Made by a program: the position numbers and the translations under genes | Source of the DNA: a virus | Strand: one strand, 5' to 3' | Length of the DNA stretch: 47,947 bases | IMG/VR virus record: IMGVR_UViG_3300033153_008451 | Coordinates: 1-47,947 of that record | Part shown: piece by piece, positions 3,557-47,380 of the stretch | Numbering within the stretch: position 1 is the first letter of the stretch | How the letters are laid out: each line of letters begins with the position of its first letter | The notes under the pieces: model-generated | Databases searched by the model: none | The model's input: the letters and a program-made list of their open reading frames with translations, nothing else | What the model was told of the DNA's origin: nothing

Positions 3557-3850
3557 ATGATAAAGAAATTATATAATTTATTAATTGTATCAGGTGTGCT
3601 TATTTTTGGAATACTATTTATTTTTTTGGCATTAAATGATATAAAATCAGAAATAGAAAAATATCAATCAGAAATTCCTTATACTTACCATTCCGCCGTA
3701 GTATCTTATCTTGAATTAGAAAAAGGTAAATTATATCGGTTAGAGGATATAAAAATAATCAAGCAAAAAGAAGGAATGATTGTTTTTATATCTGATTCAG
3801 CAAGACTTTATCAGGCTGGAGTTGTAGCGGAATATGAGGATGTAAAATGA
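3557..3850 (+). CDS. Small membrane-anchored protein, unknown function
   Basis: A 97-residue protein beginning [20 protein letters not shown], one transmembrane helix near the N-terminus (about residues 7-27), then a mixed alpha/beta soluble domain with [18 protein letters not shown]. The AAGGGAG ribosome site selects the ATG at 3557 over an earlier in-frame ATG at 3518 that lies inside the previous gene. Its stop overlaps the next start in an ATGA junction. The topology suggests an inner-membrane protein with a periplasmic or cytoplasmic domain. No known family is recognised. Confidence 0.78.
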
Positions 3851-4071
3851 GTTTAGAATTACAACAATATTTATTATTAACAGCAATTAGTACTATACAC
3901 CAAAATTATTCAAAATTTGATGTTACCTATAAAAATTTTCCTTTTACGAGGAAGCCACGAAATGGCAAAGTTGTAAAAGTAAGGACGTACCGGAAAATCG
4001 GCAGGAACGAAATATGTCCTTGCGGAAGCGGTAAAAAATTTAAACGTTGTTGCCTAAAAAAAAGAGGATAA
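3847..4071 (+). CDS. SEC-C zinc-motif protein
   Basis: A 74-residue protein whose last 23 residues form a clear SEC-C motif, [18 protein letters not shown] (C57, C59, C68, C69). In SecA and other proteins this motif binds one zinc ion and mediates contacts with partners such as SecB. The first 50 residues are short and not conserved in any family I recognise. It overlaps the previous gene by 4 bp (ATGA) and the next ATG follows by one base. Free-standing SEC-C proteins are common in phages and mobile elements; the role here is unknown. Confidence 0.85.
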
Positions 4072-4072
4072 A

Positions 4073-4345
4073 ATGAATAGATTTAAATACGCAAACTCAT
4101 TAAAAGACCCCGATCCCATTGAGGGATTAGTAAGAGTTACCGACTGGATATATCCCAGTAAACTATTACGATTTGGTAAAGTAAAATACATCTCCCACAA
4201 CTTTACCATAGTTCCCCATCCCGCCCGTATCATCCTCGCAAAACACTGGCTCGAATCTCACCGGAAATTCGTCAATGGCACCATCCGTAAAAACCAAAAA
4301 GGCCAATGCGCCGTATTCAGAAGAAAGGAAGACATAGAATTATGA
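4073..4345 (+). CDS. Hypothetical basic protein, 90 residues
   Basis: The protein is basic with a predicted mixed fold (VKYISHNFTIVPHPARIILAKHWL) and no membrane segment. An AGAGG site lies 6 bases before the start. It is one base downstream of the SEC-C gene, and its TGA overlaps the ATG of the tiny membrane gene that follows, so it belongs to the same operon. No recognisable family. Confidence 0.75.
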   Translation: MNRFKYANSLKDPDPIEGLVRVTDWIYPSKLLRFGKVKYISHNFTIVPHPARIILAKHWLESHRKFVNGTIRKNQKGQCAVFRRKEDIEL

Positions 4346-4452
4346 AATATTTAAGATTACTACTATTGCCCATTTTACTATTCGGAGTTGTAATATTTTA
4401 CATACTGCTTGGTATTAGGAATTTATTTTTCCCTTACAAAGAGAGTGAATAA
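4342..4452 (+). CDS. 36-residue single-span membrane peptide
   Basis: A short gene packed with ATGA and TAATG overlaps on both sides (4342-4345 and 4450-4454), which argues that it is real. It encodes one hydrophobic helix (LRLLLLPILLFGVVIFYILL) followed by a charged tail KESE. Together with the two genes at 3394 and 3557 it makes three small membrane proteins in one operon. They may modify the host envelope or act as inhibitors of host functions, but no family is recognised. Confidence 0.65.
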   Translation: MKYLRLLLLPILLFGVVIFYILLGIRNLFFPYKESE

Positions 4453-5099
4453 TGGGTTATCAATGTCCGGTTTGCTCAAAAGATTTTGGAATAGATCAAA
4501 AATTATTCGATCAACACCTATCCTCGGCGCATTCCGGCTTAGGCAAAGATTTAAAAGATTTATTTATAATTTCCAACCTTGTAGGTTTTCCAGACCTGCA
4601 AGGTTTGAAATCATCAACCCATCCCCCGCTCTTTAAACCATCAACCATCAACCCCGTCATTCATGGCGGGGATAAAATCAACCCCTCATTAACCCCGGGC
4701 TTTAGCCCGCAAAAAGGAAAAAAATTGAGTAAAACACCACCAAAGATCACCACCGACGCCTTTAAAAATCCAAAATCCCGCAACTGCACCATAAAAAATC
4801 TCGATGGGTATTTATTTGATCTTCTCGTTCATGCAAACCGTCTCGGCTTAGAGGAAAAACAGATCACCGAAATATTATACAGTTTCGGTCTCAGCGCCCC
4901 TCACCTCGATTTTATCACCGCCCCCTCGCAACCCAAACCCCAAACAAAAAACGACAATGAAAACTTAATATTGCGACTTGAAATAGTTGCGGGTGAACTG
5001 GAAGATTTAAAACGATTCCCTATGGAAGCAACCGTTAGAGAGGCTATGGATGTTTTAAACAAACTTCCCGCACCCTCGCCCCCCGGAGTAAAAAAATGA
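4452..5099 (+). CDS. C2H2 finger protein read through repeats into a second domain
   Basis: The 215-residue frame has three parts. Residues 1-30 form a C2H2-type finger (YQCPVCSKDF...HLSSAH). Residues about 40-90 are the in-frame translation of palindromic elements (4573-4604, 4652-4671, 4694-4710) and AACCATC units. Residues 92-215 form a helical domain (DGYLFDLLVHANRLGLEEKQITEILYSFG). The usual layout here is palindrome pair, ribosome site, start codon. At 4725 there is an in-frame TTG preceded by AAGGA, so the second domain may be a separate gene (4725-5099, 124 residues). Either the repeats fused two genes or they invaded one. Function unknown. Confidence 0.7.
   Translation: MGYQCPVCSKDFGIDQKLFDQHLSSAHSGLGKDLKDLFIISNLVGFPDLQGLKSSTHPPLFKPSTINPVIHGGDKINPSLTPGFSPQKGKKLSKTPPKITTDAFKNPKSRNCTIKNLDGYLFDLLVHANRLGLEEKQITEILYSFGLSAPHLDFITAPSQPKPQTKNDNENLILRLEIVAGELEDLKRFPMEATVREAMDVLNKLPAPSPPGVKK
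4573..4710. repeat. Three palindromic elements inside a reading frame
   Basis: In order: the AACCTTGTAGG/CCTGCAAGGTT element (4573-4604), the CCCC-GTCATTCATGG-CGGGG element (4652-4671) and the CCCGGGCTTTAGCCCGC element (4694-4710). AACCATC units lie between the first two. The frame of the surrounding gene stays open through all of them. Confidence 0.85.
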
Positions 5100-5385
5100 A
5101 TAAAAATTTAAATTTGAGGATAAGGTCAGGTAATGTCAGGTGTGGTTTGGTAAGGTTTGGTTTTTTAAATTCCCTAAACTCCTAAACCCTAAACTTCTAA
5201 ACTCCTAAACTCTAAACTCTTTTCTAAACGCTCTTTCCTAAACTCCCAAACTCTTTTTTCTAATTTCCCCATTCCCCCTTCCTCCTTTCTCCTTTCTCCT
5301 TTCTCCTTTCTCCTTTCTCCTTCCTCCTTATTCCACCCCGCTCTTTAAACCATCACCCATCAACCATTAACCATCAACCATGGAA
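5100..5385. repeat. Low-complexity intergenic tract
   Basis: No gene is seen in these 291 bases. They contain a short AT-rich lead, then CTAAACTC/CTAAACCC units (about 5163-5255), TTTCTCC/TTCCTCC units (5276-5330), a CCGCTCTTTAAACC block and AACCATC units ending at the next start. Confidence 0.85.
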
Positions 5386-16904: not shown

Positions 16905-17078
16905 GTGGGGCGGCCTCCTTTCTCCGCCCCGCCGTATCCTCCCCCCGCCCCGCTCTTTCTCCCCTTCACCTTTTCGCCCCCTCGCCCCCTCGCCCCCTCG
17001 CCTTGCCGCCCCCTCGCCTTGTCGCCCTGTCGCCCTGTCGCCCCTTCGCTCTTTAACCCATTAACCATTAACCATCAA
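16905..17078. repeat. C-rich intergenic tract
   Basis: CGCCCCCT, CGCCTTGC and CGCCCTGT octamers, then the TTCGCTCTTTAACC block and AACCATT units, leading to a GGAG site (17081-17084). Confidence 0.9.
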
Positions 17079-19225: not shown

Positions 19226-19458
19226 CTCGCTCTTTCTCCCCCTCGCCCCCTCGCCCCTCCGCTCCTTCGCCCCCTCGCCTTGTCGCCCCTTCCTCCTGCT
19301 TCCTTCCTCCTGCTTCCTTCCTCCTACTTCCTTCCTCCTTTCTCCTTCCTCCTTCCTCCTTCCTCCTGCTTCCTTTCTCCTTCCCCTTCGCCTTGTCGCC
19401 TCTTCGCCCCGTCGCCTTGTCGCTCTTTAAACCATTAACCATCACCCATTAACCATCG
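19226..19458. repeat. Long mixed repeat tract
   Basis: No gene is seen. CGCCCCCT units, a long run of TTCCTCC/TGCTTCC units (about 19289-19385), a second CGCCTTGT block, the CGCTCTTTAAACC block and AACCATT units come in the same order as in other tracts. Confidence 0.92.
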
Positions 19459-20227: not shown

Positions 20228-22288
20228 ATGAAAAAAATACTAATAATCTTAATAATGATCACATCTTTATTCGCAGGTCTTCACGACTATTCCACCCAGG
20301 AGGTGCTTAATCTTGTCCTCACCGACTCCACCCTTAACTCTTATTATCATGACTACTCAGCCCAGGAAGTCCTCAATCTCGTTTACGACGCCTCAAACTC
20401 AGCCCTCCGTATATATCTTGATTCACTTCTAAGTTGTAAAATAGACACCCTATCCTCTGACTCTATATATGTTGATACAATAAAAGTAGATGGCTTGGCA
20501 ATACTGGATAAGGCCGATATTGCTGAATTATCTTTATCAGACAATACTTCGGCTAAAATACTTCTTGGCGATGGTAGTAAATATGTTGCCAAATCAGTGT
20601 CTGGTGACGCAACTATTGACGCAAATGGAGTTGTTAGTTTATCTCCTGGTACAGTTGCAGATAGTTCTGCGTCTACTCGAAAAGAACTGGTAAATGTATC
20701 AAGTGAATTTTCTGGTATTGGTACAGACACCACCTATCTATATGCCATCGACGACGGATCATCTGTGAAAATTATGGTAACAGTAGATGATAACGGTAAC
20801 GAGGGTGATATAGATTTAACGCCACTTTATCAAGGCGTGGAATGGGATCAGTCAGGTGACACTTATCGCCGGTTGGGTTCTACTGCGGGAATGGCAAAAT
20901 CTACAAGTCCTGGAAATGATTATTTACCTATCCAGTCAGATATGAAACGCTGTTTGTTAAATGACAATGGAACAGTAAATTATTATCTTGACGCTGATAA
21001 TTCTATGATGAAGCAGTATACAACTATTCCTTATTCTGATTCAATAAATTATGTCAACGGTGATACTATTATTGTGACCGGCGCTTCGTTTTCCACTACG
21101 GCAGATACAGGAATGTGGGTGCATAATGTTGATAGTACTCTTTACGCCTGGATAAAAGGAATATGTAGTGATGATACTCTTATATTGTCGGATTCTATTT
21201 TTGTGGTTGGCGATAGCATAAACCAATATAATGCTATATTGAACGGCGACGACGGTCAGGTAATGGTAGAAATCCCGAAATTTTATGAAAAATACAATAG
21301 AACAGGTGATATATTAAAATGGTATGTTAGCAAATATGATTTGACTGGGTTTGACTTACATCCAGCCTTCTGGAAAGATGGGCAAGAAGTAGATTATCGG
21401 TATATGAGTGCTTTTGAAGGTTCTATGTATGATGATAATATTTCTGCTATGTGTCCTGATGCAAACATAGAAGATGATAGATATGCAAGTGGCGATAAGA
21501 TGTGTTCTGTTGCTGGATATTATCCAAAAACAAATGAAACACGAGCAGAAAATAGAGCAATGGCTGCCGAAAGAGGTTCTGGATGGCGACAAGTAGATTA
21601 TTATTTACATTCAGCGATTCAGTTATTGTATTTAATTGAGTATGCAGATTTTAATTCGCAATCTGTAATTGGCAATGGCAGAACTATGTTTTCAGACGGT
21701 GCTTGGGAAGCAGCAAATCAGGGAAATGGCAAATATATTGGCAGGTGTGGATATAGCCTTGCAGATGGTAACGGTACAAACGCAACTGATAGAGCAAGTA
21801 GCACGGATATATCCGCAATCAACACTGAAACAGATTTTACTTATCACGATTATATGACCTATCGTGGAATAGAAAACTTTTTTGGTAATGTGTGGAAGAT
21901 GTTAGATGGAATTACTTGGGATGGTAGATGGACTGGTAGCGCAGCTGCTCAGCCTGTTTATGTTACAAATAACTCATCGGATTTTCAAGATGAAGCAAGG
22001 GTTAATATGCAACATCTTTGCGATGCAAGTTATATTGGTACGACCGCCGGTTATATAGGAGATATTGAAAACGCAACAGGGTTTATACCATCAAATGATG
22101 GCGGAAGTGAAACAACCTATTTATGTGATAATTATTGGCAATATTCAGAAAATGGTCGGGACTATTGGCGGTTGGTTCTAGTTGGCGCTAATACGTATGA
22201 CGGTCTGAAGGGCGGCGTGTTTTCGCTTCACGTCAACTATGCTTCGGGTAACGTTAATGCGTATCTTTCCGGTCGCTTGGCTTATTAG
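20228..22288 (+). CDS. DGR target protein with lectin-like variable C-terminus
   Basis: A 686-residue protein. Residues 1-16 form a signal peptide (MKKILIILIMITSLFAG). Residues 19-60 hold two HDYS-x-QEVLNLV repeats. The middle is beta-rich and fibre-like. From about residue 340 (MVEIPKFYEKY, then HPAFWKDGQEV, FEGSMYD and GIENFFGNVW) it matches the C-type-lectin/FGE-like fold of DGR targets such as Mtd. Residues 646-684 are the variable repeat, ending GRLAY. Adenine-directed retrotransposition would diversify its ligand-binding face. The DNA turns AT-rich after about 20440, so the N-terminus may come from a different source than the rest. A tail-fibre role is usual; the signal peptide suggests export. 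A GGAG site precedes the ATG. Confidence 0.95.
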   Translation: MKKILIILIMITSLFAGLHDYSTQEVLNLVLTDSTLNSYYHDYSAQEVLNLVYDASNSALRIYLDSLLSCKIDTLSSDSIYVDTIKVDGLAILDKADIAELSLSDNTSAKILLGDGSKYVAKSVSGDATIDANGVVSLSPGTVADSSASTRKELVNVSSEFSGIGTDTTYLYAIDDGSSVKIMVTVDDNGNEGDIDLTPLYQGVEWDQSGDTYRRLGSTAGMAKSTSPGNDYLPIQSDMKRCLLNDNGTVNYYLDADNSMMKQYTTIPYSDSINYVNGDTIIVTGASFSTTADTGMWVHNVDSTLYAWIKGICSDDTLILSDSIFVVGDSINQYNAILNGDDGQVMVEIPKFYEKYNRTGDILKWYVSKYDLTGFDLHPAFWKDGQEVDYRYMSAFEGSMYDDNISAMCPDANIEDDRYASGDKMCSVAGYYPKTNETRAENRAMAAERGSGWRQVDYYLHSAIQLLYLIEYADFNSQSVIGNGRTMFSDGAWEAANQGNGKYIGRCGYSLADGNGTNATDRASSTDISAINTETDFTYHDYMTYRGIENFFGNVWKMLDGITWDGRWTGSAAAQPVYVTNNSSDFQDEARVNMQHLCDASYIGTTAGYIGDIENATGFIPSNDGGSETTYLCDNYWQYSENGRDYWRLVLVGANTYDGLKGGVFSLHVNYASGNVNAYLSGRLAY
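22163..22279 (+). repeat. DGR variable repeat (VR), 117 bp
   Basis: The last 117 coding bases before the final two codons of the target gene align without gaps to the template repeat at 22324-22440. There are 18 differences and all fall on template adenines, changed to G (10), T (4) or C (4). No template C, G or T is changed. Hits fall mainly in first and second codon positions. Confidence 0.97.
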
Positions 22289-22296
22289 GGGATATC

Positions 22297-22551
22297 ATGA
22301 ATTTTCTTAGGATTTTATGCCAATATTGGCAGTTGGTTATAGTTGGCACTAATACGAATAACAGTCTGAAAGGCAGCGTGTTTTCACTTAACGTCAACAA
22401 TGATTCGGGTAACGATAATGCGAATATTTCCAGTCACTTATGCTTATTTCTAAAAAGTATTTGGCATAAAATCCTTGCCTCTTGGCAAAAAATAAAGCAA
22501 AGCCTCATTCAGTTTGGTAGGTTAAATCTCGAAGAACTGGAGGTGAAATAA
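22297..22551 (+). CDS. Open frame containing the DGR template, doubtful gene
   Basis: The frame (84 residues) begins MNFLRILCQYWQ and reads the template repeat in the same frame as the target protein (VIVGTNTNNSLKGSVFSLN), then continues with a helical tail LFLKSIWHKILASWQKIKQSLI. The preserved frame could be a relic of an ancestral second target copy, or simply a side effect of the template lacking stop codons. The upstream sequence ATTAGGGGATATCATG gives a weak ribosome site (GGGGAT). The template must mainly act as RNA. If the tail is translated it is too short to be an Avd protein. Confidence 0.3.
   Translation: MNFLRILCQYWQLVIVGTNTNNSLKGSVFSLNVNNDSGNDNANISSHLCLFLKSIWHKILASWQKIKQSLIQFGRLNLEELEVK
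22324..22440 (+). ncRNA. DGR template repeat (TR), 117 bp
   Basis: The template RNA for mutagenic retrohoming lies between target and reverse transcriptase. It has 36 adenines, 18 of which are substituted in the VR. Five AAT/AAC codons are placed where diversity arises in the protein, the classic design in which AAY codons give many residues but no stop. The transcript boundaries beyond the repeat cannot be set from sequence alone. Confidence 0.95.
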
Positions 22552-22555
22552 GCAA

Positions 22556-23611
22556 ATGAAACGATTTGGGTATTTGTACGAGAAAATTTATGATATGGGA
22601 AATCTCAAACTCGCTCACAAAAAAGCAAGAAAGGGCAAAACTCATTACAAAGAAGTCCAGATGGTAGATGCTAATCCTGAAAAATATTTAACTCTTATTC
22701 ATAATATGCTAAAAAACAAAACATTCAAAAATTCTAAATATGTAATAATGGATAAGAAAACCGACAGTGGCAAAGTTCGCAAGATATTTAAATTACCTTA
22801 TTATCCTGATAGAATTATTCATCATGCAATTATGCAGATACTTGAACCTATTTGGCTTAGTACATTTGTTAGAGATACCTATTCAGCTATTCCTGGCAGG
22901 GGTATTCATGACGGAGTTAAAAGAATTAAAAAAGCATTAAGAGATAAGGAAAACACTAAATATTGTCTTAAACTCGATGTAAAAAAATTCTATCCTTCGG
23001 TTGATAATGAAATCCTGAAACAAATAGTAAGAAAAAAGATTAAGGATGAAGATTTATTGTGGCTTTTGGATGAGATTATTGATAGCACAAAAGGCATTCC
23101 GATTGGCAACTATCTCAGTCAATATTTTGGCAACTTATATCTATCTGGCTTAGACCATTACTTAAAAGAGAATTTGAATTGTAAACAAGCATTCCGATAT
23201 TGTGATGATATAGTAATTTTACATCAATGTAAAGATTTTTTACACAAATTGAAAAACATTATTATTAATTATCTAACAGGATTGAAGTTGCAGTTAAAAA
23301 ATAATTGGCAGATATTTCCGGTTGCTGTAAGAGGAATAGACTTTTTAGGCTACAGGTTTTTTCATAAATATACATTATTGAGAAAATCTATTAAGATTAA
23401 ATTTGTGAATAAAATTAAAACGATTAATAAAAATTGGGAGAGATTAAAACATACGGAAATAGTAAATAGTGTAATGAGTTATTGCGGGTGGTTTAAATAT
23501 GCGAATTGTAAGAATCTTACTCATAAATACATTAATGATAATCTATTCTGGATAGTAAAACATATTTGTATTGACAGTAATATAGTAAATCCATTACAGG
23601 GGATAAGATGA
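22556..23611 (+). CDS. DGR reverse transcriptase
   Basis: A 351-residue reverse transcriptase. Motif A has KLDVKKFYPSVD (catalytic D141). Motif B reads GIPIGNYLSQ (180-189), with the SQ ending typical of DGR enzymes rather than the SP of group II introns and retrons. Motif C is RYCDD (D217, D218). After it come LKLQLKNNW and GIDFLGYRFF, the domain D/E region. No maturase or endonuclease domain is attached. It copies the TR RNA with errors at adenines, and the cDNA then replaces the VR. The AGGTG ribosome site precedes the ATG at 22556. The end overlaps the next gene by 4 bp. Confidence 0.97.
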   Translation: MKRFGYLYEKIYDMGNLKLAHKKARKGKTHYKEVQMVDANPEKYLTLIHNMLKNKTFKNSKYVIMDKKTDSGKVRKIFKLPYYPDRIIHHAIMQILEPIWLSTFVRDTYSAIPGRGIHDGVKRIKKALRDKENTKYCLKLDVKKFYPSVDNEILKQIVRKKIKDEDLLWLLDEIIDSTKGIPIGNYLSQYFGNLYLSGLDHYLKENLNCKQAFRYCDDIVILHQCKDFLHKLKNIIINYLTGLKLQLKNNWQIFPVAVRGIDFLGYRFFHKYTLLRKSIKIKFVNKIKTINKNWERLKHTEIVNSVMSYCGWFKYANCKNLTHKYINDNLFWIVKHICIDSNIVNPLQGIR

Positions 23612-23898
23612 AAAAGTTTTCAGACTTCTCTAAGGAAAATATATTAGACGGTGATAAAATTCGTATTGATGATATATTGAACGAGGAGGTTCTGATAACA
23701 GGATATGCAATAAAAAATAGTAAATACAGCAAAAATGAAAGCGGAAAATATTTGACTTTACAGATTATTAAGGATGATAAAAAGTATGTTGTTTTTACAG
23801 GAAGTGATGTTTTGATTGACCAAATGGAAAAGTACAATGCTGAGATTCCATTTATGGCAACGATAAGAAAAATTAACAGATATTATTCATTAACATGA
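23608..23898 (+). CDS. Probable OB-fold ssDNA-binding protein coupled to the RT
   Basis: A 96-residue protein: MKKFSDFSKENILDGDKIRIDDILNEEVLITGY, then a GKYLTLQIIKDDKKYVVFTGS strand pair and IRKINRYYSL at the end. The strand-turn-strand layout and the form GKYLTLQI...FTGSDVLIDQ match small phage proteins annotated as ssDNA-binding, probably OB-fold. Its start overlaps the reverse-transcriptase stop by 4 bp (ATGA), so the two are translated together. In place of Avd it may bind cDNA or template during retrohoming. That role is inferred from context only. Confidence 0.85.
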   Translation: MKKFSDFSKENILDGDKIRIDDILNEEVLITGYAIKNSKYSKNESGKYLTLQIIKDDKKYVVFTGSDVLIDQMEKYNAEIPFMATIRKINRYYSLT

Positions 23899-28376: not shown

Positions 28377-28645
28377 CATGTCGCCCCCTCGCTCTCTCGC
28401 CCTGTCGCCCTGTCGCTCTCTCGCCTCCTCGCCCTGTCGCCCCTTCCTCCTGCCTCCTGCTTCCTTCCTCCTTCTTCCTCCCCGCCCCCTCGCCCCCTCG
28501 CCTCCTCGCCCTGTCGCCCCTTCCTCCTGCCTCCTGCTTCCTTTCTCCTTCTTCCTCCCCGCCCCCTCGCCCCCTCGCCCCCTCTCCCCGTCGCCCCTTC
28601 GCTCAATCGCCTCCCCACCCCGCTCTTTCCTAAACTCTAAACTTC
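28377..28645. repeat. Long C-rich and TTCCTCC tract
   Basis: No gene. CGCCCTGT/CGCTCTCT octamers, two near-identical blocks of TTCCTCC-TGCCTCC-TGCTTCC (28444-28480 and 28520-28558) separated by CGCCCCCT units, then CTAAACTC units and a GGAG site. The two blocks suggest a recent internal duplication of about 77 bases. Confidence 0.92.
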
Positions 28646-29978: not shown

Positions 29979-30212
29979 CCATGAGCCATCAACCCGCCCC
30001 CTCGCCCCCTCGCCCCCTCGCCTTGTCGCCCAGTCGCCTTGTCGCCCAGTCGCCCCTTCCTCCTTATTCCTTCCTCCTTTCCCCTTCCCCACCCCCTCGC
30101 CCCCTCGCCTTGTCGCCCAGTCGCCTTGTCGCCCCTTCCTCCTTATTCCTTCCTCCTTCCTCCTCGCCCTGTCGCTCTTTAAACCATCACCCATTAACCA
30201 TCAACCATTAAC
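29979..30212. repeat. C-rich and TTCCTCC tract, duplicated
   Basis: No gene. Two similar halves, each CGCCCCCT-CGCCTTGT-CGCCCAGT followed by TTCCTCC-TTATTCC, then CGCTCTTTAAACC and AACCATT units, and a GGAG site for the next gene. Confidence 0.92.
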
Positions 30213-30226
30213 CCACGGAGTATAAA

Positions 30227-33516: not shown

Positions 33517-36500
33517 CAAAAAAAGCCCTGTTTGACCTTAGCGGTGGAATAAATAATCAGACCCGCCCCGACCTCCTCGAAGATAATCAGCTCCAGGCCG
33601 CCCAAAATTATGAATGCCGCGGCCGCAATGGTACTCTTTACAAACGTACCGATCCCGCCACATATCTTGTAAACCTTAACTATGCGCTTTCTCGCCATTT
33701 CGACACAGTTATAAGCATCTCTCCCGCTTTTTATCCTTCGGTTAAGCCGGACGACATGACCGATGACCACATGCTCCTCGTATTCGGTAAAAAGGACGAT
33801 TCCTACTACCTTTACCTTTATTATGAGCAATCTGGCGGTTACAAAATCACAATTCCTGGCGTCACCTACTCCGCCGACTCCGTTCTGCGCTTCGCCATAG
33901 CCCACGACCGCGTCATTATCACAGATTACGAAGGCGGCAACGTCGCTCACTACTTTACCATAGATGAAGACGGCAACAGGGTTTCCGGCATAATGGGAAT
34001 AAACGCCCCCCTGAACAAGCCCGGTATATCCCAAATGACCGACTGGGACGCTACCCTTTTTGAAGAAAACAACGAAAACGACTACCTCTCCGAATGCGGC
34101 CTCGTTCAGGTCTGTTACACCGTCGCTACCAAAGACGGAGAAGAATCAAATCCATCGCCCGTCTCAAATACCCTCGATATGCAGTTCTTTAAACTCGAAG
34201 ATGGCGAAGACGCCCGCTTTCTGGAAAAGATACAGGTTAGCAACCTCTCCATTCCTCCCCGTCTCGCATCCAATATCAAAGATAAACTCAAATACTTCAA
34301 CATCTACGTCCGCGTCTTCCGCTACTCCGCCGGTTCAGTCTCAAAGTCCTTCGAATACTCTCAGCGCTTCGCCATCATCGATAAAGACAATGCCTCCGGA
34401 TCAACCGGAAATAACTACTCGATAACCGTCTCGCCCACCGCCGGACAACAGGTATCTCACGAAAACGACGTCGCGCCCATAGCAAAATATCCCGCCGCGC
34501 TTGGCGGCGTTACCATGCTCGCCTGCTGCAAAACCAAAATAAAATTCCCCGCCGAATTCGATCGCTACGTCGAAATAAAACTAAACAATCAGGACTCAAA
34601 AACCTACATAGACGCCGTTATTCGGATCCAACTCAAAGACGAAACCTATCCCTCGGATTTTATATCAGACCTCGATTGGACGGACTTCGACCCCGACGAC
34701 AACTATGTCATAGGTCAGACGGGATTAAATCAATTAAGAGTATACGACAATGATCTCACCACTCCCCTGTCCGTAGTTTACGATTTAAAAAGACTGTGGA
34801 ATGGTGGCGACGTCCGAAGATATTGTGATATATACATTAAGATTCCCCAACTCGAAGCCGGAAACGTCCACTCCCTTTACTTCTGCTTCGGTGGAATAGG
34901 CGTAGACGTCTTAGATCTAAAATCCGCCGATTATGGTCAATGGGTACGAGCCGACGCTTGGACAGGTCAGCAGGTGTTTCAACCTCTTCGTGTCTGGAAT
35001 ACCGACGTTCTTATCTGCTCGCCTGTCGATATGAAACGTAATAATAATCATGTCCTGAATAAAGTTAATGACGACGACACCGCCTTTGACACTTATTCAG
35101 AATCTTCCCCGCCTCCTTTTGCTCCCGATTATAATTATCGTTGGGAACTTATAGAAGCTTCCTGGGAATCCACTGAAATTGCCAAAGTTTCCCTCTTTCA
35201 AAAACTCATTGGTAATAGCTGTTTTTCCCTTGACAATGCCAATGGTAAAGCCGCTATCGGCGCCTGTGGGCTTACGGAAATGCCGGATAAAGGATTTATT
35301 TCATTCTATTTTAAACATTCTACAATCTCATCCGAGACTCGTGTATTCACCTTTTATGATAATACTAAATCAGAAAGACGCTGTCTTGGAATAAGAGACG
35401 TCGGCGCAGGAGAATATTACTGGTTTGTTACCGACGATGACCATTATGAAGATTTTACCTCAATATTTAAACCTAACTTTCGTAACAAACAATATTTCGT
35501 CCTTTTTTCCTGGGATGAAGATAATATAAGTCTCTTTATTGTGGATTTAGATGACAATACTTATGATTATCAGGCCAAAACATCATCGTCAGTCGATATG
35601 TCTGATATGAATTTAGAAGCTATGTTTGCCGGTGCCGTATACGATACATACGCTCATAATGGCGCCGAATATGATCAAATAATGTTTGTGAAAGACGTTT
35701 ATTTCAACGCCTCAAACGCAGACCACCGCAATACTGTTTATAATATTGCCAACTTCATGCCGCCCCTCGATACAATGATAGGCTACAAACCTTCCGACTC
35801 CTCTTCCAATAACAATATCGAATTCGGCGATACCGAAGCCATAGAATACAAAACCCACGAAAATATGATCAAGTGGACAGAAGTAAACGGACTCGCCTTT
35901 CCCGATCTAAACTACAAAAAAGTCAAAGAACCTGTCAACGGATTTATTCCCGCCCCCTCATTCCTCCGCTATCAATACCAAAACACCGTCCTCATATACA
36001 CCCGCAACTCCATTACCCGCTTTATTCTATCCGGCGTCCCTTCGTCCTGGCGCGGTTCAGCCAACGCCATTATCGAAGAAAAAACTCAATACGGTCTTTC
36101 CTCGCCCCGCTCCCTCGTCAAAATAGGCGACGCCCTCTTTTGGCACTCCGAAATCGGCGTGATCCGCTGGGATCCAAACGGACTGCGCCCAATATCCCGC
36201 AACGTCATCGACGTCCCGCTCCTCTCGTCCGGTGAATATCTCGCATTTTACTGTCCCCTGCGCAATCAATATATCATCACCGACAATGCCAACTCCATCG
36301 CCTACGCCTATGTAATAGATCAGAACAAATGGTTCTACTTCACAGAATTCAATGTAGAATCCGTCGCCGTACTCTCCGGCGGACTCGACGCCGACAACGT
36401 CAACCTTTTTCTACACTCCAACGAAATCAATAAATATCCCACCGACGTCTATACCGAAGCCTTATCATTCATTCAAACTAAAGACGTCTTCTTTGAAAAA

Positions 36501-36737
36501 GGCGTCCTCCGCCGCATGAAAGTAAACTTTGAAAAAGGCGTCCCGGACGTCCTAATAAAATCAATAGTCACAAAAAATAATGTAGACGGTCTCGAAATAG
36601 AAAAAACAAACACCATCACCAACCCCAACCCCCGCCAATGGCGAGGAATAGCCCCGGCCAACAGCAGAGGAAAAAAAGTCAGTTTCAGGATCGAAAACCC
36701 CAACATCATCAGAAATATAATGTACGACCTCCATTAA
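33513..36737 (+). CDS. Large tail hub/nozzle protein with lectin-like insertions
   Basis: A 1074-residue protein. The first 330 residues start LSGGINNQTRPDLLEDNQLQAAQNYECRGRNG, the typical opening of P22 gp10/T7 nozzle-like stabilisation proteins (GGIN...L-x-x-NQ). Residues about 352-460 look like a DUF2341-type beta domain (VEIKLNNQDSKTYIDAVIRIQL...LYFCFGG). Residues about 570-740 look like a LamG/concanavalin-like carbohydrate-binding domain (GFISFYFKHSTI...RVFTFYD). The last 280 residues return to propeller-like strands (ITRFILSGVPSSWRG). The insertions could bind cell-surface sugars. Overlaps the DUF1617-like gene by 4 bp. Confidence 0.85.
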   Translation: MTKKALFDLSGGINNQTRPDLLEDNQLQAAQNYECRGRNGTLYKRTDPATYLVNLNYALSRHFDTVISISPAFYPSVKPDDMTDDHMLLVFGKKDDSYYLYLYYEQSGGYKITIPGVTYSADSVLRFAIAHDRVIITDYEGGNVAHYFTIDEDGNRVSGIMGINAPLNKPGISQMTDWDATLFEENNENDYLSECGLVQVCYTVATKDGEESNPSPVSNTLDMQFFKLEDGEDARFLEKIQVSNLSIPPRLASNIKDKLKYFNIYVRVFRYSAGSVSKSFEYSQRFAIIDKDNASGSTGNNYSITVSPTAGQQVSHENDVAPIAKYPAALGGVTMLACCKTKIKFPAEFDRYVEIKLNNQDSKTYIDAVIRIQLKDETYPSDFISDLDWTDFDPDDNYVIGQTGLNQLRVYDNDLTTPLSVVYDLKRLWNGGDVRRYCDIYIKIPQLEAGNVHSLYFCFGGIGVDVLDLKSADYGQWVRADAWTGQQVFQPLRVWNTDVLICSPVDMKRNNNHVLNKVNDDDTAFDTYSESSPPPFAPDYNYRWELIEASWESTEIAKVSLFQKLIGNSCFSLDNANGKAAIGACGLTEMPDKGFISFYFKHSTISSETRVFTFYDNTKSERRCLGIRDVGAGEYYWFVTDDDHYEDFTSIFKPNFRNKQYFVLFSWDEDNISLFIVDLDDNTYDYQAKTSSSVDMSDMNLEAMFAGAVYDTYAHNGAEYDQIMFVKDVYFNASNADHRNTVYNIANFMPPLDTMIGYKPSDSSSNNNIEFGDTEAIEYKTHENMIKWTEVNGLAFPDLNYKKVKEPVNGFIPAPSFLRYQYQNTVLIYTRNSITRFILSGVPSSWRGSANAIIEEKTQYGLSSPRSLVKIGDALFWHSEIGVIRWDPNGLRPISRNVIDVPLLSSGEYLAFYCPLRNQYIITDNANSIAYAYVIDQNKWFYFTEFNVESVAVLSGGLDADNVNLFLHSNEINKYPTDVYTEALSFIQTKDVFFEKGVLRRMKVNFEKGVPDVLIKSIVTKNNVDGLEIEKTNTITNPNPRQWRGIAPANSRGKKVSFRIENPNIIRNIMYDLH

Positions 36738-36895
36738 CCATTAACCATTAACCATTCCCCGCCCCGCTCTTTCTCCCCTTCCCCCTGTCGCCCCCTCCCC
36801 CAGTCGCCCCCTCGCCTTGTCGCCCCTTCCTCCTTCCTCCTTTCCCCTTTCTCCTGTTTCCTTCCTCCTTCCTCCTTATCCCTTAATCCTTTAAC
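36738..36895. repeat. C-rich and TTCCTCC tract
   Basis: AACCATT units come first here, then CGCCCCCT, TTCCTCC/TTTCTCC and ATCCTTTAACC units, followed by CCGGAG as ribosome site. The unit order differs from other tracts, with an AACCATT block at each end. Confidence 0.9.
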
Positions 36896-36908: not shown

Positions 36909-38408
36909 ATGTCATTATGGTCATTACTCCCCGCCGCTGCCAGTACAGCCGCGCTCGCTATGAACAAACCCAAAAAATCCGATTACCGACTAAACACCGG
37001 ATACATCAAAAAATACATCGCCTCCCTTCGCGGCCGCAAAAACGACCGCCAAGTATACAACATGGCCATGCGGCCAATGGTAAAAGCCATAGGCCAGCAA
37101 ACCGGACGAGCCAGACGCAACATAGAAGCCTCATCCGCCCGCTATGGTCTATCAGGTTCCGGCATAGAAGCCCAGCAAAAACTGTCAGCCAACAAAGCCG
37201 CTCTTTCAGCCCTTACCGGCGCTCATGAAAAAGCCGCTCTCAGACAGCAAGCCGAAAACTATCGCATAGACAAATCCATCGACTATGCTATCCAGCGCGA
37301 AGGCTATCACACAGCCCGCGCCAATCTTGCCTTCAATCAGGCCAAAACTCAGTACCGGCGCAACCTTACCGGCGGAATAGTAAATCTTGCCGCCCAGGGC
37401 GCCGCGCAAATAGGTCAGACCATGCAAAACAACAGGCAAGCCTATAACCAAGCCCGCGCCTCCGGCCTCCTCCCCACCGAAACCACTCAACAGGAATTTT
37501 ATGATCAGGCCGCGCAAGCAGGCTACAAAGGCGACTTGGCAAATTACATCGCCTCCCTCCAAGTCCAAAATCAGGACGCCGCTATCAACGCCTACAATAC
37601 CTACCTTGCCAGCCCGTCAGAAGAAAACCTCGCCGCCCTAAAAGAAATCAATCCCGCCCTCCACTCCGGACTCCTCGAACAAACGTCCCGGCAAAAAAAC
37701 ACCCTCATCAACAAAATTCAACAAAGCATTCCCGCCGAGCAACTTCCCGAGAACTTAGAGCAAATGTCCATCCCCGATTTAAATAATCTTCTCGCTCCCC
37801 GCCCAGTCGCCCCGTCGTCCCCTCCACCCTCTCCCCTTCAATACTTCGACGCCGCCCTTACCGACCCCGATGTTTCATCCGGGGATATGACCAGACAATA
37901 TCAAAATTGGCTCCTTACCGGCGAATATGACGAAACTCAGTCCAGTAAAATACAAACCCGTATAAAAACAAAACAAGCCAATGAACTAAAATTTCTCACA
38001 GAACAAGAACAAAAAAAAGAATTCGCCCGCATATACGCCGACAATCGTAATGATCTCAAAGTCAGCCTGGAAAATACCGCCGCCGCCGCTAAATTAACAG
38101 AGGATCCCCACTACCTGAATATCCTAAACTCACTCAATTCTCTTTCCGGTTCCAAACAATCCATTAATATCGTCGAAGCCGATAAATTAAAAGACGAGAT
38201 CAAATCTTTTATAGAAAATATAAAGTTTGATCAAATAGACACTTTACGCCCTGGTGCTTTCAATTTGACAATGAATAATATCGACAACCCCGGCCAAAAG
38301 AAAAATAGGCTCTATCTCTATCTCACCGGTTATGTAGATAATATGCAAAAGGCAATTCCCGCCGAAAATCAGGTTGAAGATTTAATAAATGATTTAATAG
38401 GAGAGTAA
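36909..38408 (+). CDS. Internal virion (ejection) protein
   Basis: A 499-residue, Ala- and Gln-rich helical protein. Its N-terminus (MSLWSLLPAAASTAALAM) is a short hydrophobic helix; next come ARRNIEASSARYGLSGSGIEAQQKLSA and long helices, as in podoviral ejection proteins that leave the head and line a channel across the periplasm. Position after the nozzle gene and before the giant protein fits. Residues about 296-312 (APRPVAPSSPPPSPL) come from C-rich repeat units read in frame at about 37794-37834. Good GGAG site; TAATG overlap with the next gene. Confidence 0.85.
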   Translation: MSLWSLLPAAASTAALAMNKPKKSDYRLNTGYIKKYIASLRGRKNDRQVYNMAMRPMVKAIGQQTGRARRNIEASSARYGLSGSGIEAQQKLSANKAALSALTGAHEKAALRQQAENYRIDKSIDYAIQREGYHTARANLAFNQAKTQYRRNLTGGIVNLAAQGAAQIGQTMQNNRQAYNQARASGLLPTETTQQEFYDQAAQAGYKGDLANYIASLQVQNQDAAINAYNTYLASPSEENLAALKEINPALHSGLLEQTSRQKNTLINKIQQSIPAEQLPENLEQMSIPDLNNLLAPRPVAPSSPPPSPLQYFDAALTDPDVSSGDMTRQYQNWLLTGEYDETQSSKIQTRIKTKQANELKFLTEQEQKKEFARIYADNRNDLKVSLENTAAAAKLTEDPHYLNILNSLNSLSGSKQSINIVEADKLKDEIKSFIENIKFDQIDTLRPGAFNLTMNNIDNPGQKKNRLYLYLTGYVDNMQKAIPAENQVEDLINDLIGE

Positions 38409-41400
38409 TGCTCACTCCGGACAAACTTCCAAAATACAAACAACTCTATGAAATTTGGGACGCCGATCCAAACGCCATTTTAAATTCATCAAAAAAAGAC
38501 GCCGCCCTGAAACTCATCGGTCAATACAAAGATTATCTCAATCAACAAAAACTCCAACAGCAGCAAGCCCGGGAAAACCTCGCCCTCCGCAACTCGCCCT
38601 TTCGCAATTTCGCCCCCTCGCCCAGCCGCCCCCTCGCCCCCTCCCCCCCTCCCCCCGTCGCCCCCTCGCCCCTTCCTCCTTCCTCCTCACCCCCTCGCAC
38701 CCTCGCCCCCTCGCAACCCGCCCCTTCGTCAATCGACCGCCGCCGTCAGCACTATGCCGATCGTGGCTTCGAAACTTATCCCAAAACCCTTAGAGATATA
38801 TACGTCCCACCTCTCGATCCCTCATCCCCCCTTTCTCCTTCCTCCTCGCCCCTTTCTCCTTCCTCCTCCCTCCTTCCTCCTTCCTCCTCTCCCCCTCGCC
38901 CCCTCGCTCCCTCGCCCGGCCGCTCCGGCTCCCCCGATCTCCCCGAATCCTACGCTCAGACCCTAAAACGTCAGGAAATCCAGCGGGAAATAGACGCAAT
39001 CGAAATTCAGGCCGAACAAATAAAAAAAATAGACGCCAAATTAAAACCCTATGAAGACGAACTAAATAAATTCAACCAATTCATAGATCAGGAAACAAAA
39101 TCATTTACCGGTACAGCAAAGCAATACGAAAGATATCAAAAACTTTATCAGCATTATAACAAAATTCTAAAAAAATATCAGCCCAACCTCGACGCCTGGA
39201 ACAATGAACTTCTCCCTCAATATCAAAACCTTATCCAACAATATAATGAACTCCTCCCAAAATATCACTACGCCCAGCCGGAAACCGCTATTCGGCCCGC
39301 CCAGCCCCAGCCCCAGCCCTCAGGCACACCAATAGGCGCGCCCGGATCAGGTTACATCCTCCGGCAACCCGCCCCCTCGTCCCTCCGCCCCCTCTCCTCC
39401 TCGCCTCCCCGCCCCCTCTCCGCCCAATCCCCTCAAATCGCCCAGATGATTTTAGAAGTATCCCGCAAAACCCAAATCCCTCCCCATATAGTAGAAAAAA
39501 ACTTTGAGCCTCTTGTAAAGCAACTTAGCAAAGAATATTTCGGGAAAAAACCCGAAGCCACCGCAATGGAACATGCCGAATTTGCTATGATATTTCCCAT
39601 CGCCGCCGGTTTAATGGCGCATCCTCTCGCAACAGTCAAAGGCGTTCTCTCTTTTGGCGCAGTATCAGAAATGGTCAACGGTCTTACCAGTCTGCTCACC
39701 CAACAAAAATATCAATTCGGCGGCGGCAAAGGTCTTGAACAAGCCGTACCCTATACTTCCACCAATGCCCGAAAAGTTTTAGAAATAATAGATTTTCTTG
39801 GAAAAGCCGCTATTACCCATGGTTTATACAAAGCCGCGCCTGTATTATTTGAGAAATTTACCAAAAATGTTTTCGAAGGTTACAAACTCCCCCGCACAAT
39901 CACCATTTCGCCCGAAGAAGTCCGCGCCGCCCAGATTGACGGCAAAGGAGTTTCCGCAGAAAAACTGCAAGCCCTCAAAGGTCTGAAATCAGGCGCGGAA
40001 TGGCGCGCCGCCCTAAAAAAAGGAACCGTAATAGAACTCGAAGCCAGAGACTTCATAAAAATTGTTGACAAACCCTATTGGCGCAAAATTAAAAAAGCCT
40101 TCAAAGTCAAACCTTTTGAAGAAACTCGATTTCTTGGAAAAAACATAAAACAGCAAACCCTCATCCCCGAATCCTATCGCCTCGAATCTCAAACCAAAGG
40201 CAAAACAGCCCCATCACCCATCACCCATGAACCATCCCCAAAATCTCTCGTCGGAGAACTCGCTCAGAAGCCCGCTAAGAGCCAAACGCAAAAAATTGAA
40301 CCTAAACCCTTAGTAAAAACCACCCCATCAGACATTTCAGACCTGCAACCGCTTAAATCACTAAAATCCACACCCATTACCCATCAACCATCAACCATTC
40401 CGGAATCTTTTGTCACTCCCAAGCCGCAAATCCCCTACAAAACCGTAGCGTCCGCCAAATCCGCCATAAAATCCCGCAAACTATCGCCCGCAACTCACAG
40501 CATTGTAAAAATCAATGACGGTTTCGCGCTTGCGCCCAATAAATTTGTAGGTATTACCAAAATAGGAGGTAATGAACGCCAGGTTTTTCAGACTCCCGAT
40601 GGCAATTTATATGCTTGGAACAAAAAACACACCAAAAAACAATCCTACACATGGAAAGATCTTCAAAAATATAGAAATCGGTCTGCTGCGTCAAAGGCGG
40701 CGTTTTATAATTTACAAGAAAACAATATCCTTATACCTCCAAAAACAGTATCAGGCGGAGATATGCCCGCCCTTTATGCAATCTGGAATGCCGGAGTCGC
40801 CCGCCAAATCGGTAAAGATAGCAAAGGCAAACCATCTTTTGAATATCATTACGATCAAATAAGTGGTTTTCTTATTGGTGACAGCTACATTGGCGCTTCG
40901 CCTATACTCAATCGTAAATCAAAAAAATTTACCTATGATCTCATCGATGGCGCACATCTTGAAGGAAATCAGGAATTTATCAAAAAATATGGACGTCCTG
41001 ACGAAATGACCTTTGACGACGTCAAAGAACTTGCTGAAAAAGAATTAGCGGAATACGCCGAAGGTCTGTATAATGATGTGACTCACCACCGCTTCACCGA
41101 TGATGAAATTGCTCAAATAAAATGGGATAAACTCACTCCCGACGAGCAAAGACTATATATTTTAGAAGATGAAATGGGCGGATTGATTGACGAAGCCGCA
41201 GAAAAAGAATTTCAATTAGAAGAAATACTCAAAAAAGAAACAGATAGCGCCTGGGACGATCTCGAATTTATTAAACAACATGAAAAAGACCGCAAAGAAT
41301 ATTTGCATTTAATTGAAAAAGGTTATATATTAGAATCAGGAGAAATAGATGCAAGAACGCAAACCAAACCCAAAACGAAACAACCGCCTCAAGTTGATAA

Positions 41401-44400
41401 GCGAGATGATCGCCATAAAACGCAACAGCCCCGACCCGGCCTTGGCACAAAGAGCGGCCGACCGTCTCGAACGGATCAGGGAATCAACCGAACGGCAGAT
41501 CGCATTCTTGAAAAACAGAAAAAAACAGAACCCGACCTAAAATCCGCTCCTTCGCCCCCTCGCCCCTCCGCTCCTTCGCCCCCTCGCCCCTCCGCTCCCC
41601 CGCCCCCTCGCCCCGTCACTCCCCCGCCCCCTCGCCCCACATCCGCCACTCACGCCGACGCCGCCGACTATCCTTTTTGGGACAGCCCCGACTACATAGC
41701 AGATCAGCCCTCAGTCATCGGACTACCCGAAATAATCAAACTTAACAAACTCATCACCCAGGGAAAACTCCCCAAAATAATGGATCATCTCCGCAAAGCG
41801 GCCGCTCTCGGTCTAACCAAAGGTGATGAAGCCAATATTCTCGCTGAAATAGCCATAGGTCACAAAATATTTGACAAACAATTCAAAGAAAAGCCCGATC
41901 CCGACAAAATAAAAGCCGAATTTCTCAAAGACAATCCCAAATATTTCAATCAGCCTCTTGAAGTCAAAATCACCCGTCCGCCAAGAGCCAAACAATACAC
42001 ATTGAAAATATTCCGTGTCGATCCCACCCTTTTACAGAGAGTAGTTGCTCACGAACTCGGTCATATAATCGACTTTCTTCCTAACAGATCCACTAATCCC
42101 GGCAATATATTAGGACGAATAGCCAACCTAAAAAAATATCTCAAACACATCCTACCCGAAAAACCGGGCGCGCCGGGCGAACTCACCGCCAAAGACCGCG
42201 CCAGGTTTCGCAATATTGCCCAAAAAAATCTAAAAGGCAAAATAGAAATCAGAGAAATAGTCACCGAAATTCAAAAAGTGATCAATCTCACCCCAAAACT
42301 CATTCATGGCGTTTGGTCGGATATTCACTCCGCTGAAAAATTCCCCGAACTCACAGAATTCGTCGCCATGCTTTCCGACAAAGAAAAAGTTGAATTAATG
42401 AAATCAGCTATCAAAGGCAAAGTACCCGACTGGGCCAAGACCGTTACTAAAACTGAGAAAAAAATAGAAACCCTCGAAGTCAAACTCGACGCAAATCCCG
42501 CCGATATACGCAAAGAATACGAAAGATTGATAGTTGAAGAACTCAAAAAACGCAAACTCTTTCAACTCGAAGAAATAATGTCGGAACTCATAAAACTAAC
42601 CCAAAAATGGAAACCCTTTGATGTCACCGCCAGAAAATCATACGCCAGATACCGTCACAGTAGCCCCGAACTTTACGCCGACGCTATTAGTGTTCTTATC
42701 AACAAACCCGAAATGTTAAAACAAATAGCGCCCTCCTTTTACAAAGCCTTCTTCAACTATCTCGAAAACAAGCCCCGCATAAAAAAGGCATACGATCAAA
42801 TTCAGGCTCTTCTCAAAAAAGGCGAAGACGCAATCTTTGAAGACCGTCTGAAAACATTCTTCGCCGATGTAGAAAAAGGCCGGAAAGTAGCCGATATAGC
42901 CCGCAGACGCAATGAAAAATCCTTCCGTGACCTCTGGGGTGAATTAATGTCCAATTTTGTCACCAAAGGCCACTACCTCCGCAAAGACGTAAAAAAAGCC
43001 AAAGTCAGCCCGGAAAACAATCCCTATTACTTCTACAAACAGATCCCCTATGTAATGTCAAACAACTTCCAATACGTCCGGGATCTCTCAAACACCGTCA
43101 AACTCCCCCTCGAAAAAAACAAAATAGATCAAAAATATTTCGACTTCTACCTTATGCTCATCCGTTCCACCACCGAAAGAAAATACCTTGCCAACCCCGG
43201 CGGTTACAATCTACCCGAAGGCGTAAAAACCCTCCAAAAACTCAAAAAACATCTTGGTACGGAAAAATTTAGCCAACTTGAAAAATCAAAAGCCGCCCTG
43301 ATCAAAGCCAGGAAAGAAAACGTCTTTCCCCTGCTCCGCAAGTCAAAAGCCTATGACAGCAATTTTATGAAATACATAGAAGACAACGAAAACTACTTCA
43401 CTTTCAGCGTTTACAAATTCCTCACCGACAAATATAAATACTCAAATAATCTCCAGTCCGCCAAAATATTTAATCAGATAGGTACATTCGAAGCCATACG
43501 CGGCCCCTTTGAAGCCACTATGTTAAAAGATATTAGCCTGATGGCGGGCGCGGTGCGAACCATTGCCGCTCAGAAACTCGTCGATTTTTACCTCAATCCC
43601 GACAACAAACTCACCGAAAAGATCAGCATCTCAAAAAGAGATGGAAAAGGCCGTATAGTAATGGCTCGCGGCGACTACAAAACCATTAGTTATCTGTACG
43701 AAGGCAAAACCCGCGCCTACGATCTCCCCAAAGAAATCGTGGAAGCCTACGAATACAATGATTTGCACATGCAAACTCTCGTAAAATATCTGAGTATTCT
43801 AAACCGCCCCTTCAAAGAACTATTTGTCGGCAAAAATCCCTTCTGGGCGCTCTTAACCAACCTGCCCCGCGATATAAAGCGCACTTGGATAAATAACCCT
43901 GAAATAACCATTATCAACCTTGCCAAAAATCTCGCCAAAATCGCTCCCGATGTATTCAAAGACGTTTTTCTCGGAATATCCACTCCCAAAGTCAGAAAAT
44001 TATATCAGCAAAGAAGACTCCCCGCCTACCGTCTTTGGATGTCAGGCCGCAACCCCGAAGAATCCTATGCTGATATGGAGATAAAACAATTCGAAACCAG
44101 TCCCCGAAAATATATTGATAATATTTATAATCCTTGGCGCGTGCTAATGACGCTACTTGAAGACATTGCCGCTTTCACCGAAAAAGTTGTCAAAGCAGGT
44201 GGGTCTATTGCTCTTGAAGAACAAGGATTAAGAGGCGCCGAACTCGTCTTTCGCACCATGATCGGTATTGGCTCCCCCGACTTTATGCAAAAAGGTTTTT
44301 ACACCGCCCTCAATAATAATATCAAATTGTTTTCCAATGCCGCAATACAGGGCTGGGACGCCGACATAGAAGCCGTACTAAGAAATCCCCGCTCGTTTTT

Positions 44401-46810: not shown

Positions 46811-47135
46811 TATAAACCCCTCATCCCCCGGCGCCAGTAGATATGATTGCCGTATGCAAAGTTCCCCCCTCGCATCAATTCCCGCCTACACAGCCCGCCC
46901 CAAAGTCGCCGGGGGTATCCTACCATCATCATCAACCATTCCCCAAACCCTAATTTCCCCCTTCTCCTTCCCCCTTTCTCCTTTCTCCTTCCCCCTTTCT
47001 CCTTCCCCCTTTCTCCTTTCTCCTTATCCCTCCCCCACCCTACCGCTCTTTTAAACATTAACCCCGTCATTCATGGCGGGGATAGAATCAATCCCCTGCT
47101 AACCCCGGGCTTTAGCCCGCAAACCGGAGGAACAA
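46811..47135. repeat. Intergenic region with TTTCTCC tract and palindrome pair
   Basis: About 325 bases without an accepted gene. First about 120 bases of C-rich but non-repetitive DNA (a doubtful frame starts at 46800), then CCCTTTCTCC units (46955-47035), the CGCTCTTTTAAAC block, and the palindromes CCCC-GTCATTCATGG-CGGGG (47062-47081) and CCCGGGCTTTAGCCCGC (47104-47120), then a GGAGG site. Confidence 0.8.
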
Positions 47136-47255: not shown

Positions 47256-47380
47256 GCCCTATACCCCGCCCCCTCGCCCCCTCGCCCTGTCGCCCTGTCG
47301 CCCTGTTGCCCTATCGCCCTGTCGCCCCTTCCTCCTTCCTCCTTATTCCTTTTTTTTAAAACCTTTTAACTTTTTAACCC
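47256..47380. repeat. C-rich and TTCCTCC tract
   Basis: CGCCCCCT and CGCCCTGT octamers (about 47264-47328), TTCCTCC-TTATTCC units and an ACTTTTTAACC unit, then a GGAGG site for the next gene. Confidence 0.9.

Follow-up and report, generated by a model that had tools for sequence, protein, structure and literature searches.

Models of mutagenic retrohoming by diversity-generating retroelements (DGRs) are built on Bordetella phage BPP-1, where the accessory protein Avd is essential, and many viral DGRs have no Avd. How do the reverse transcriptases (RTs) of such elements start and hold their template? The question is raised by a cassette in an IMG/VR contig of 47,947 bases (record IMGVR_UViG_3300033153_008451, analyzed whole and hereafter called the window), which also contains terminase, portal and major head protein genes. 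The cassette is almost certainly a DGR of an uncultured tailed phage, and we regard it as quite likely that it is a working DGR, probably with an OB-fold protein as its partner and possibly in place of Avd. A DGR acting on a tail protein is of a known kind; the OB-fold partner probably represents a new accessory family, and the interest of the locus lies in this partner more than in the adenine pattern. The core of the cassette consists of the following features.

20228 to 22288, + strand: target gene, encoding a 686-aa tail protein with the variable repeat as its C-terminus (PHROG 5302 'tail protein', 3.4e-79)
22163 to 22279, + strand: variable repeat (VR), aligned to the template repeat over 117 bp without gaps
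22280 to 22286, + strand: GCTTATT, the same as the 3′ flank of the template repeat (22442 to 22448) after a one-base offset
22324 to 22440, + strand: template repeat (TR), located by repeat analysis of the window and its relatives
22556 to 23611, + strand: DGR reverse transcriptase, 351 aa (PHROG 1423, 1e-116; RVT_1, 4.5e-17; motifs)
23608 to 23898, + strand: 96-aa predicted OB-fold protein, overlapping the RT stop (ATGA), assigned from its model, linkage and fusion

An adenine-specific repeat pair at the end of a tail gene

On realignment, the VR differed from the TR at 18 positions, each of them an adenine of the TR (A>G, 10; A>C, 4; A>T, 4). Adenines make up 36 of the 117 TR positions, none of the 81 other positions differs, and the odds of all 18 mismatches landing on adenines by chance are 1.4e-11. 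The TR adenines are distributed over codon positions 1, 2 and 3 as 17, 15 and 4; the coding potential of the TR is about 3e19 protein variants, and a single TR codon (AAA) is convertible to a stop. Similarity between the repeats ends abruptly on both sides save for GCTTATT at the 3′ end, which is all that is common at the place of the initiation of mutagenic homing (IMH and IMH*) sequences and which likely marks the 3′ limit of copying. No IMH like that of BPP-1, invariant and GC-rich, was found in the window, nor was a GC-rich hairpin with a GRNA loop just after the VR; no local inverted repeat lies there, and the predicted DNA fold after the VR (−0.1 to −1 kcal/mol) is no better than that of shuffled sequences. 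A scan of both strands of the window returned no further VR.

Both DGR-type RT motifs ([ILV]GxxxSQ, YxDD) are present in the RT next to the TR/VR pair: IGNYLSQ at residue 183 and YCDD at residue 215, close in position to IGSLTSQ (181) and YMDD (213) of BPP-1 Brt. PADLOC gave only generic RT or other-class matches for this protein. The C-terminal 349 aa of the target (21239 to 22285) were modeled with a mean pLDDT of 67, the VR end being of low confidence. The top Foldseek match of this model was the Thermus aquaticus DGR variable protein TaqVP (5vf4; E 1.4e-9, probability 1.00), followed by weaker matches to formylglycine-generating enzymes and to the variable proteins TvpA and Mtd. The VR is thus predicted to sit in a C-type-lectin-like domain of the tail protein, as expected of a DGR target.

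A preliminary description of this DNA had placed the repeats at 22163 to 22279 and 22324 to 22440 with 18 adenine-only mismatches, which realignment reproduced exactly, and had reported an RT with IPIGNYLSQ and YCDD motifs, which the open reading frame (ORF) at 22556 to 23611 bears out; its conclusion of past mutagenic retrohoming is supported together with the DGR assignment. It had also called the element complete. The RT, TR and VR are indeed present, but an Avd gene and a hairpin or IMH of the BPP-1 type were not found. The extent it gave, 22163 to 23611, was too short, as the cassette takes in the target gene, which starts at 20228, as well as the gene at 23608 to 23898.

An OB-fold gene linked to Avd-less reverse transcriptases

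Avd was not found in the window with the Pfam profile PF22296 (bAvd), which matches BPP-1 Avd at 2.2e-37. An earlier test with PF05635 was discarded in its favor because PF05635 misses BPP-1 Avd. An 84-aa ORF lying over the TR (22297 to 22551, + strand) was rejected as a candidate Avd, having no family or bAvd match. With ends that vary among relatives, it is probably no gene; we discounted it because a TR has to stay open in the frame of the VR.

The protein encoded directly after the RT was modeled with a pLDDT of 85 and a b-b-b-a-b-b topology, and its structural neighbors are the OB domains of RuvBL, SSB, PriB and RPA (Z 4.5–7.3). The fold assignment rests on topology and middling Z scores because no Foldseek match reached E 0.001. 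The protein had no match in Pfam, NCBIfam or PADLOC, and a PDB sequence search gave nothing significant. Fifteen of 22 family members match PHROG 19665, a family of no named function (best 3e-15), and the window copy falls below threshold.

We searched for this family on its own in IMG/VR, RT presence not being required. The search returned 80 loci, and a DGR RT lay within ~2 kb of the OB gene in 74 of them. Across 87 loci, the OB gene stands directly after the RT in 66, some 330 to 385 bases further on in 9 and beyond the TR on the other side in 6; the remaining 6 have no RT. One of these (L043) is cut by the contig end, and three (L080, L089 and L090) appear to be remnants: at ~4.7 to 5.2 kb, the TR adjoins the C-terminal half of the OB gene and the RT is gone. 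This looks like recurrent RT loss through the same sort of deletion. The last two (L036 and L037, at 5001 to 5288) have the OB gene beside tail genes, with no RT, TR or VR. The gene downstream of the OB gene is far less conserved than the OB gene itself.

In a Tannerellaceae genome bin (L098), a 113-aa distant OB relative lies between the target and the TR. A search with this gene returned 20 loci (L109–L128) in which the RT has the same domain as a C-terminal fusion. By hhalign, the separate gene after the RT matches the fused form at E 1.3e-11 and the fused form matches the separate gene before the TR at E 3e-13, while the two separate forms match each other only at E 0.0015; likewise, the L098 gene is marginal against the first OB profile and is clearly matched only via the fused family. 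In the RT tree, the fused RT-OB proteins form one clade (100/100), and OB-bearing RTs are scattered over the whole tree. Within the fused proteins, the OB domain is much more conserved than the RT (for example, 93% versus 58% identity), as if it faced a constant partner.

One phage contig (G018, locus L050) has two complete DGRs, each with its own TR, VR and RT. One (L131, 2151 to 3955) has Avd and no OB gene; the other (L132, 2438 to 4193) has the OB gene and no Avd. It is the only OB-type record with Avd, and that Avd belongs to the second, separate DGR. Two accessories serving as alternatives would be expected to give this picture, though the case is a single one.

From linkage, fusion and fold, we find it fairly probable that the OB-fold protein is a working part of the DGR; that it stands in for Avd in the window is a proposition we hold to be evenly balanced. 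Nucleic acid binding and contact with the RT are suggested by the predicted fold and the fusion only. Accessories already known for DGRs include Avd, HRDC and MSL (PMC10053308). We found no mention of an OB-fold accessory in the literature searched, to which neither the DGR survey of 2018 nor the structure paper of 2025 belonged.

A conserved helix encloses the template repeat

The helix enclosing the TR is, after the OB-fold protein, a second testable part of the DGR. The RNA features around the TR are as follows.

22309 to 22323, + strand: 5′ arm of the TR-enclosing helix (inverted repeat I1), conserved with covariation
22461 to 22475, + strand: 3′ arm of the TR-enclosing helix (partner in inverted repeat I1), conserved with covariation
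22441 to 22450, + strand: TGCTTATTTC, a 10-bp perfect complement of 22545 to 22554 (inverted repeat I4)
22545 to 22554, + strand: GAAATAAGCA, partner of 22441 to 22450, just before the RT start (inverted repeat I4)
22471 to 22559, + strand: RT-17 RNA (RF03020), structured spacer from the TR to the RT (Rfam, 45.5 bits; gathering threshold 40.4)

The enclosing helix is a perfect 15-bp inverted repeat with the 5′ arm abutting the TR and the 3′ arm beginning 21 bases past it. Most related loci hold an equivalent helix in rather different letters, often with AGG...CCT at the outer end. We compared the pairing of own and swapped arms across 39 non-redundant loci. Own arms scored a mean of 27.2 against 17.1 for swapped arms, above all 20,000 permutations (maximum 19.9), while the flanks of the VR gave 16.4 against 16.5 in the same test; the TR-enclosing helix is therefore kept by compensatory change. 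The second pairing, which links the end of the TR to the sequence preceding the RT start, is weaker across loci (own 17.2, swapped 14.7, permutation maximum 17.0). RT-17 RNA is found in 11 of 18 related loci, and a more distant DGR branch (L098–L108) has shorter stems at the site of the helix.

The BPP-1 spacer downstream of the TR adopts a fold, recruits the RT-Avd complex and provides the priming adenine (PMC12875486). The pairings around the TR and spacer of the window are compatible with an RNA of this kind. The TR-flank pairing of BPP-1 itself (AGGGCAGGCTGG/CTGGCCTTTCCT) has a score of 21, nonsignificant alone.

Variable repeats turn over in close relatives

A scan of IMG/VR with the window RT returned 19 loci, the best 72% identical, and the order VR, TR, RT is the same in nearly all related loci. 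Pooled over 38 non-redundant loci, 753 of 776 VR/TR mismatches hit TR adenines. Of the other 23, 19 are T>G, an excess suggestive of another and weaker source of error at T in the template. A mirrored control scan for T-biased repeats found none.

Seven lineages include near-identical contigs whose differences are almost confined to the VR, and six of these lineages show no change in the TR. L006 and L007 come from different samples; of 5523 positions, 26 differ between them, 24 of these within the VR. Between L031 and L032, 22 of 127 VR positions differ, as against 0 of 127 in the TR and 0 of 1942 elsewhere; for L034 and L035, the corresponding counts are 14 of 116, 0 of 116 and 2 of 5709. 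Homing is therefore active in close relatives. The preliminary description had held that a single fixed VR in many samples, or non-adenine mismatches in relatives, would speak against it; the mismatches of the relatives lie almost all on adenines, and near-identical contigs carry different VRs. It had also taken the lack of non-adenine drift in the window as a sign of recent activity, which is reasonable but weak, because every homing event rewrites the VR from the TR and because strict adenine bias is the norm in the relatives. DGR activity in wild phages is already known: a global survey reported variants in 70% of VR loci, with activity highest in viral clades (PMC8144416).

Three side observations concern the relatives. 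L055 and L056 are identical over 8 kb apart from six differences in the TR (3675 to 3791 in both), the first part of which resembles a TR/VR mix; this looks like an assembly error or VR-to-TR conversion. In L014, two VRs (3942 to 4036 and 4327 to 4421) are served by one TR. L009, a phage contig, has a HEARO RNA (RF02033, 90 bits) at 4885 to 5113, ~2.9 kb downstream of the OB gene.

Alternative explanations

The OB-fold protein might instead be an unrelated phage gene, SSB-like or from the tail module, beside a real DGR whose RT works alone or with host factors. SSB genes are frequent in phages, L036 and L037 retain the OB gene without an RT, and some relatives that lack it still have TR/VR pairs. 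Against this, the OB gene accompanies the RT in 74 of 80 loci from dissimilar phages and in three arrangements (downstream of the RT, upstream of the TR and as an RT fusion), the gene downstream of it is much less conserved, and fusion to the RT is difficult to put down to hitch-hiking; we consider this explanation unlikely. Several observations nonetheless weigh against an OB-fold partner in a working element. Many proteins share the OB fold (best Z 7.3 here), and the OB gene is present without an RT in L036 and L037. Eight Avd-less relatives of the same RT clade (L011, L012, L013, L017, L018, L019, L095 and L096) also lack it, and it is therefore not universal. The window protein is near neutral (pI 7.8; family median 8.7), whereas BPP-1 Avd is basic (9.55). 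Finally, a second record of the window phage was sought via the TR pattern and none was found, and the element's own activity is thus inferred.

That missing second record, and the decayed elements among the relatives (L080, L089 and L090, each left with no RT and only half an OB gene), would also suit a relic that once generated this VR and is now dead. The intact RT with both motifs, the intact RNA, the perfect TR helix, the 81 undrifted non-adenine positions and the live VR turnover in close relatives make a relic improbable. Still less credible, to the point of being virtually excluded, is an ordinary duplication or assembly error whose copies have since drifted apart. Mixing of TR and VR in assembly does happen, as L055/L056 suggest, but the confinement of all 18 mismatches to adenines of one copy already contradicts such an origin, the same bias recurs in 38 independent loci and the control scan gave no T-biased pairs.

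Proposed mechanism

In the working DGR with an OB-fold partner that we favor, the TR would be transcribed inside a structured RNA, in which, as sequence and covariation suggest, the flanks at 22309 to 22323 and 22461 to 22475 pair and the RNA runs on into the RT-17 spacer. Copying of the TR by the RT is error-prone opposite adenines, and the cDNA overwrites the VR that closes the tail gene, as the TR/VR pattern and the VR turnover in relatives show; this alters the C-type-lectin-like domain, which may be receptor-binding. Together with the RT, the OB-fold protein probably acts on the RNA template or on single-stranded cDNA, to judge from linkage, fusion and fold. We tentatively suggest, at a little under even confidence, that DGRs have at least two accessory classes, Avd and an OB-fold partner that would do the job of Avd, keeping the template RNA or cDNA in place for the RT, through another fold, the latter encoded downstream of the RT, upstream of the TR or as an RT fusion and common to bacterial and archaeal viruses. 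The OB-fold protein is a specific candidate for how Avd-less RTs start and hold their template. If true, the compact fused RT-OB enzyme would offer an alternative base for directed-evolution tools.

Other features of the contig

The window has many low-complexity C-rich arrays (77 rows in Tandem Repeats Finder), with TCGCCCCC, CCTTCCT and CCATCAA among their units. They are mostly intergenic, some lying in frame within large ORFs (38408 to 45421), and could help to identify the host of the phage. Among 84,980 genomes, a single RT relative was found, in a Tannerellaceae genome bin (52%), too little for a host assignment. Examples of the arrays are as follows.

1531 to 1632, 16961 to 17049, 19226 to 19427, 28379 to 28622 and 29995 to 30213: C-rich arrays
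36731 to 36877, 38578 to 38917, 41543 to 41638, 46954 to 47036 and 47267 to 47328: further C-rich arrays

Comparison with known systems

The cassette resembles that of Bordetella phage BPP-1 (Mtd/Avd/Brt) in its RT motifs ([ILV]GxxxSQ and YxDD), its adenine-only changes from TR to VR, the VR at the 3′ end of a tail gene and the order target-VR, TR, RT. Unlike the window, BPP-1 has Avd (2.2e-37) and an IMH that is GC-rich, and a DNA hairpin following its VR has been published (PMC3240598); no OB relative was found in it. The DGRs of a crAss-like phage and of Psychrobacillus phage Perkons (L095 and L096) have RTs ~52 to 55% identical to that of the window and TR/VR pairs of the same type; neither the OB-fold protein nor Avd was found in them. 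Four IMG/VR phage DGRs (L002, L003, L005 and L006) have the same cassette, helix and OB gene, with RTs 69 to 72% identical, and form a well-supported clade with the window in the RT tree; they differ from it in their VRs and target lengths.

The archaeal virus ANMV-1 (L129, KP703175) has the order target-VR, TR, RT with an OB relative (45.7% identity) directly after the RT, as in the window, although its RT is far diverged. Its DGR was described by Paul et al. in 2015 with an Avd ORF drawn (PMC4372165). The sole annotated ORF between target and RT, where Avd was drawn (34834 to 35028; 2708 to 2902 in L129), overlaps the TR (2693 to 2805) and has no bAvd match, and the profile matched nothing else in ANMV-1. 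In ANMV-1 and in a Methanosarcinales virus, the OB relative stands right after the RT and is annotated 'hypothetical protein'. If the OB-fold protein is indeed the partner of these RTs, the reading of the first archaeal-virus DGR would be corrected.

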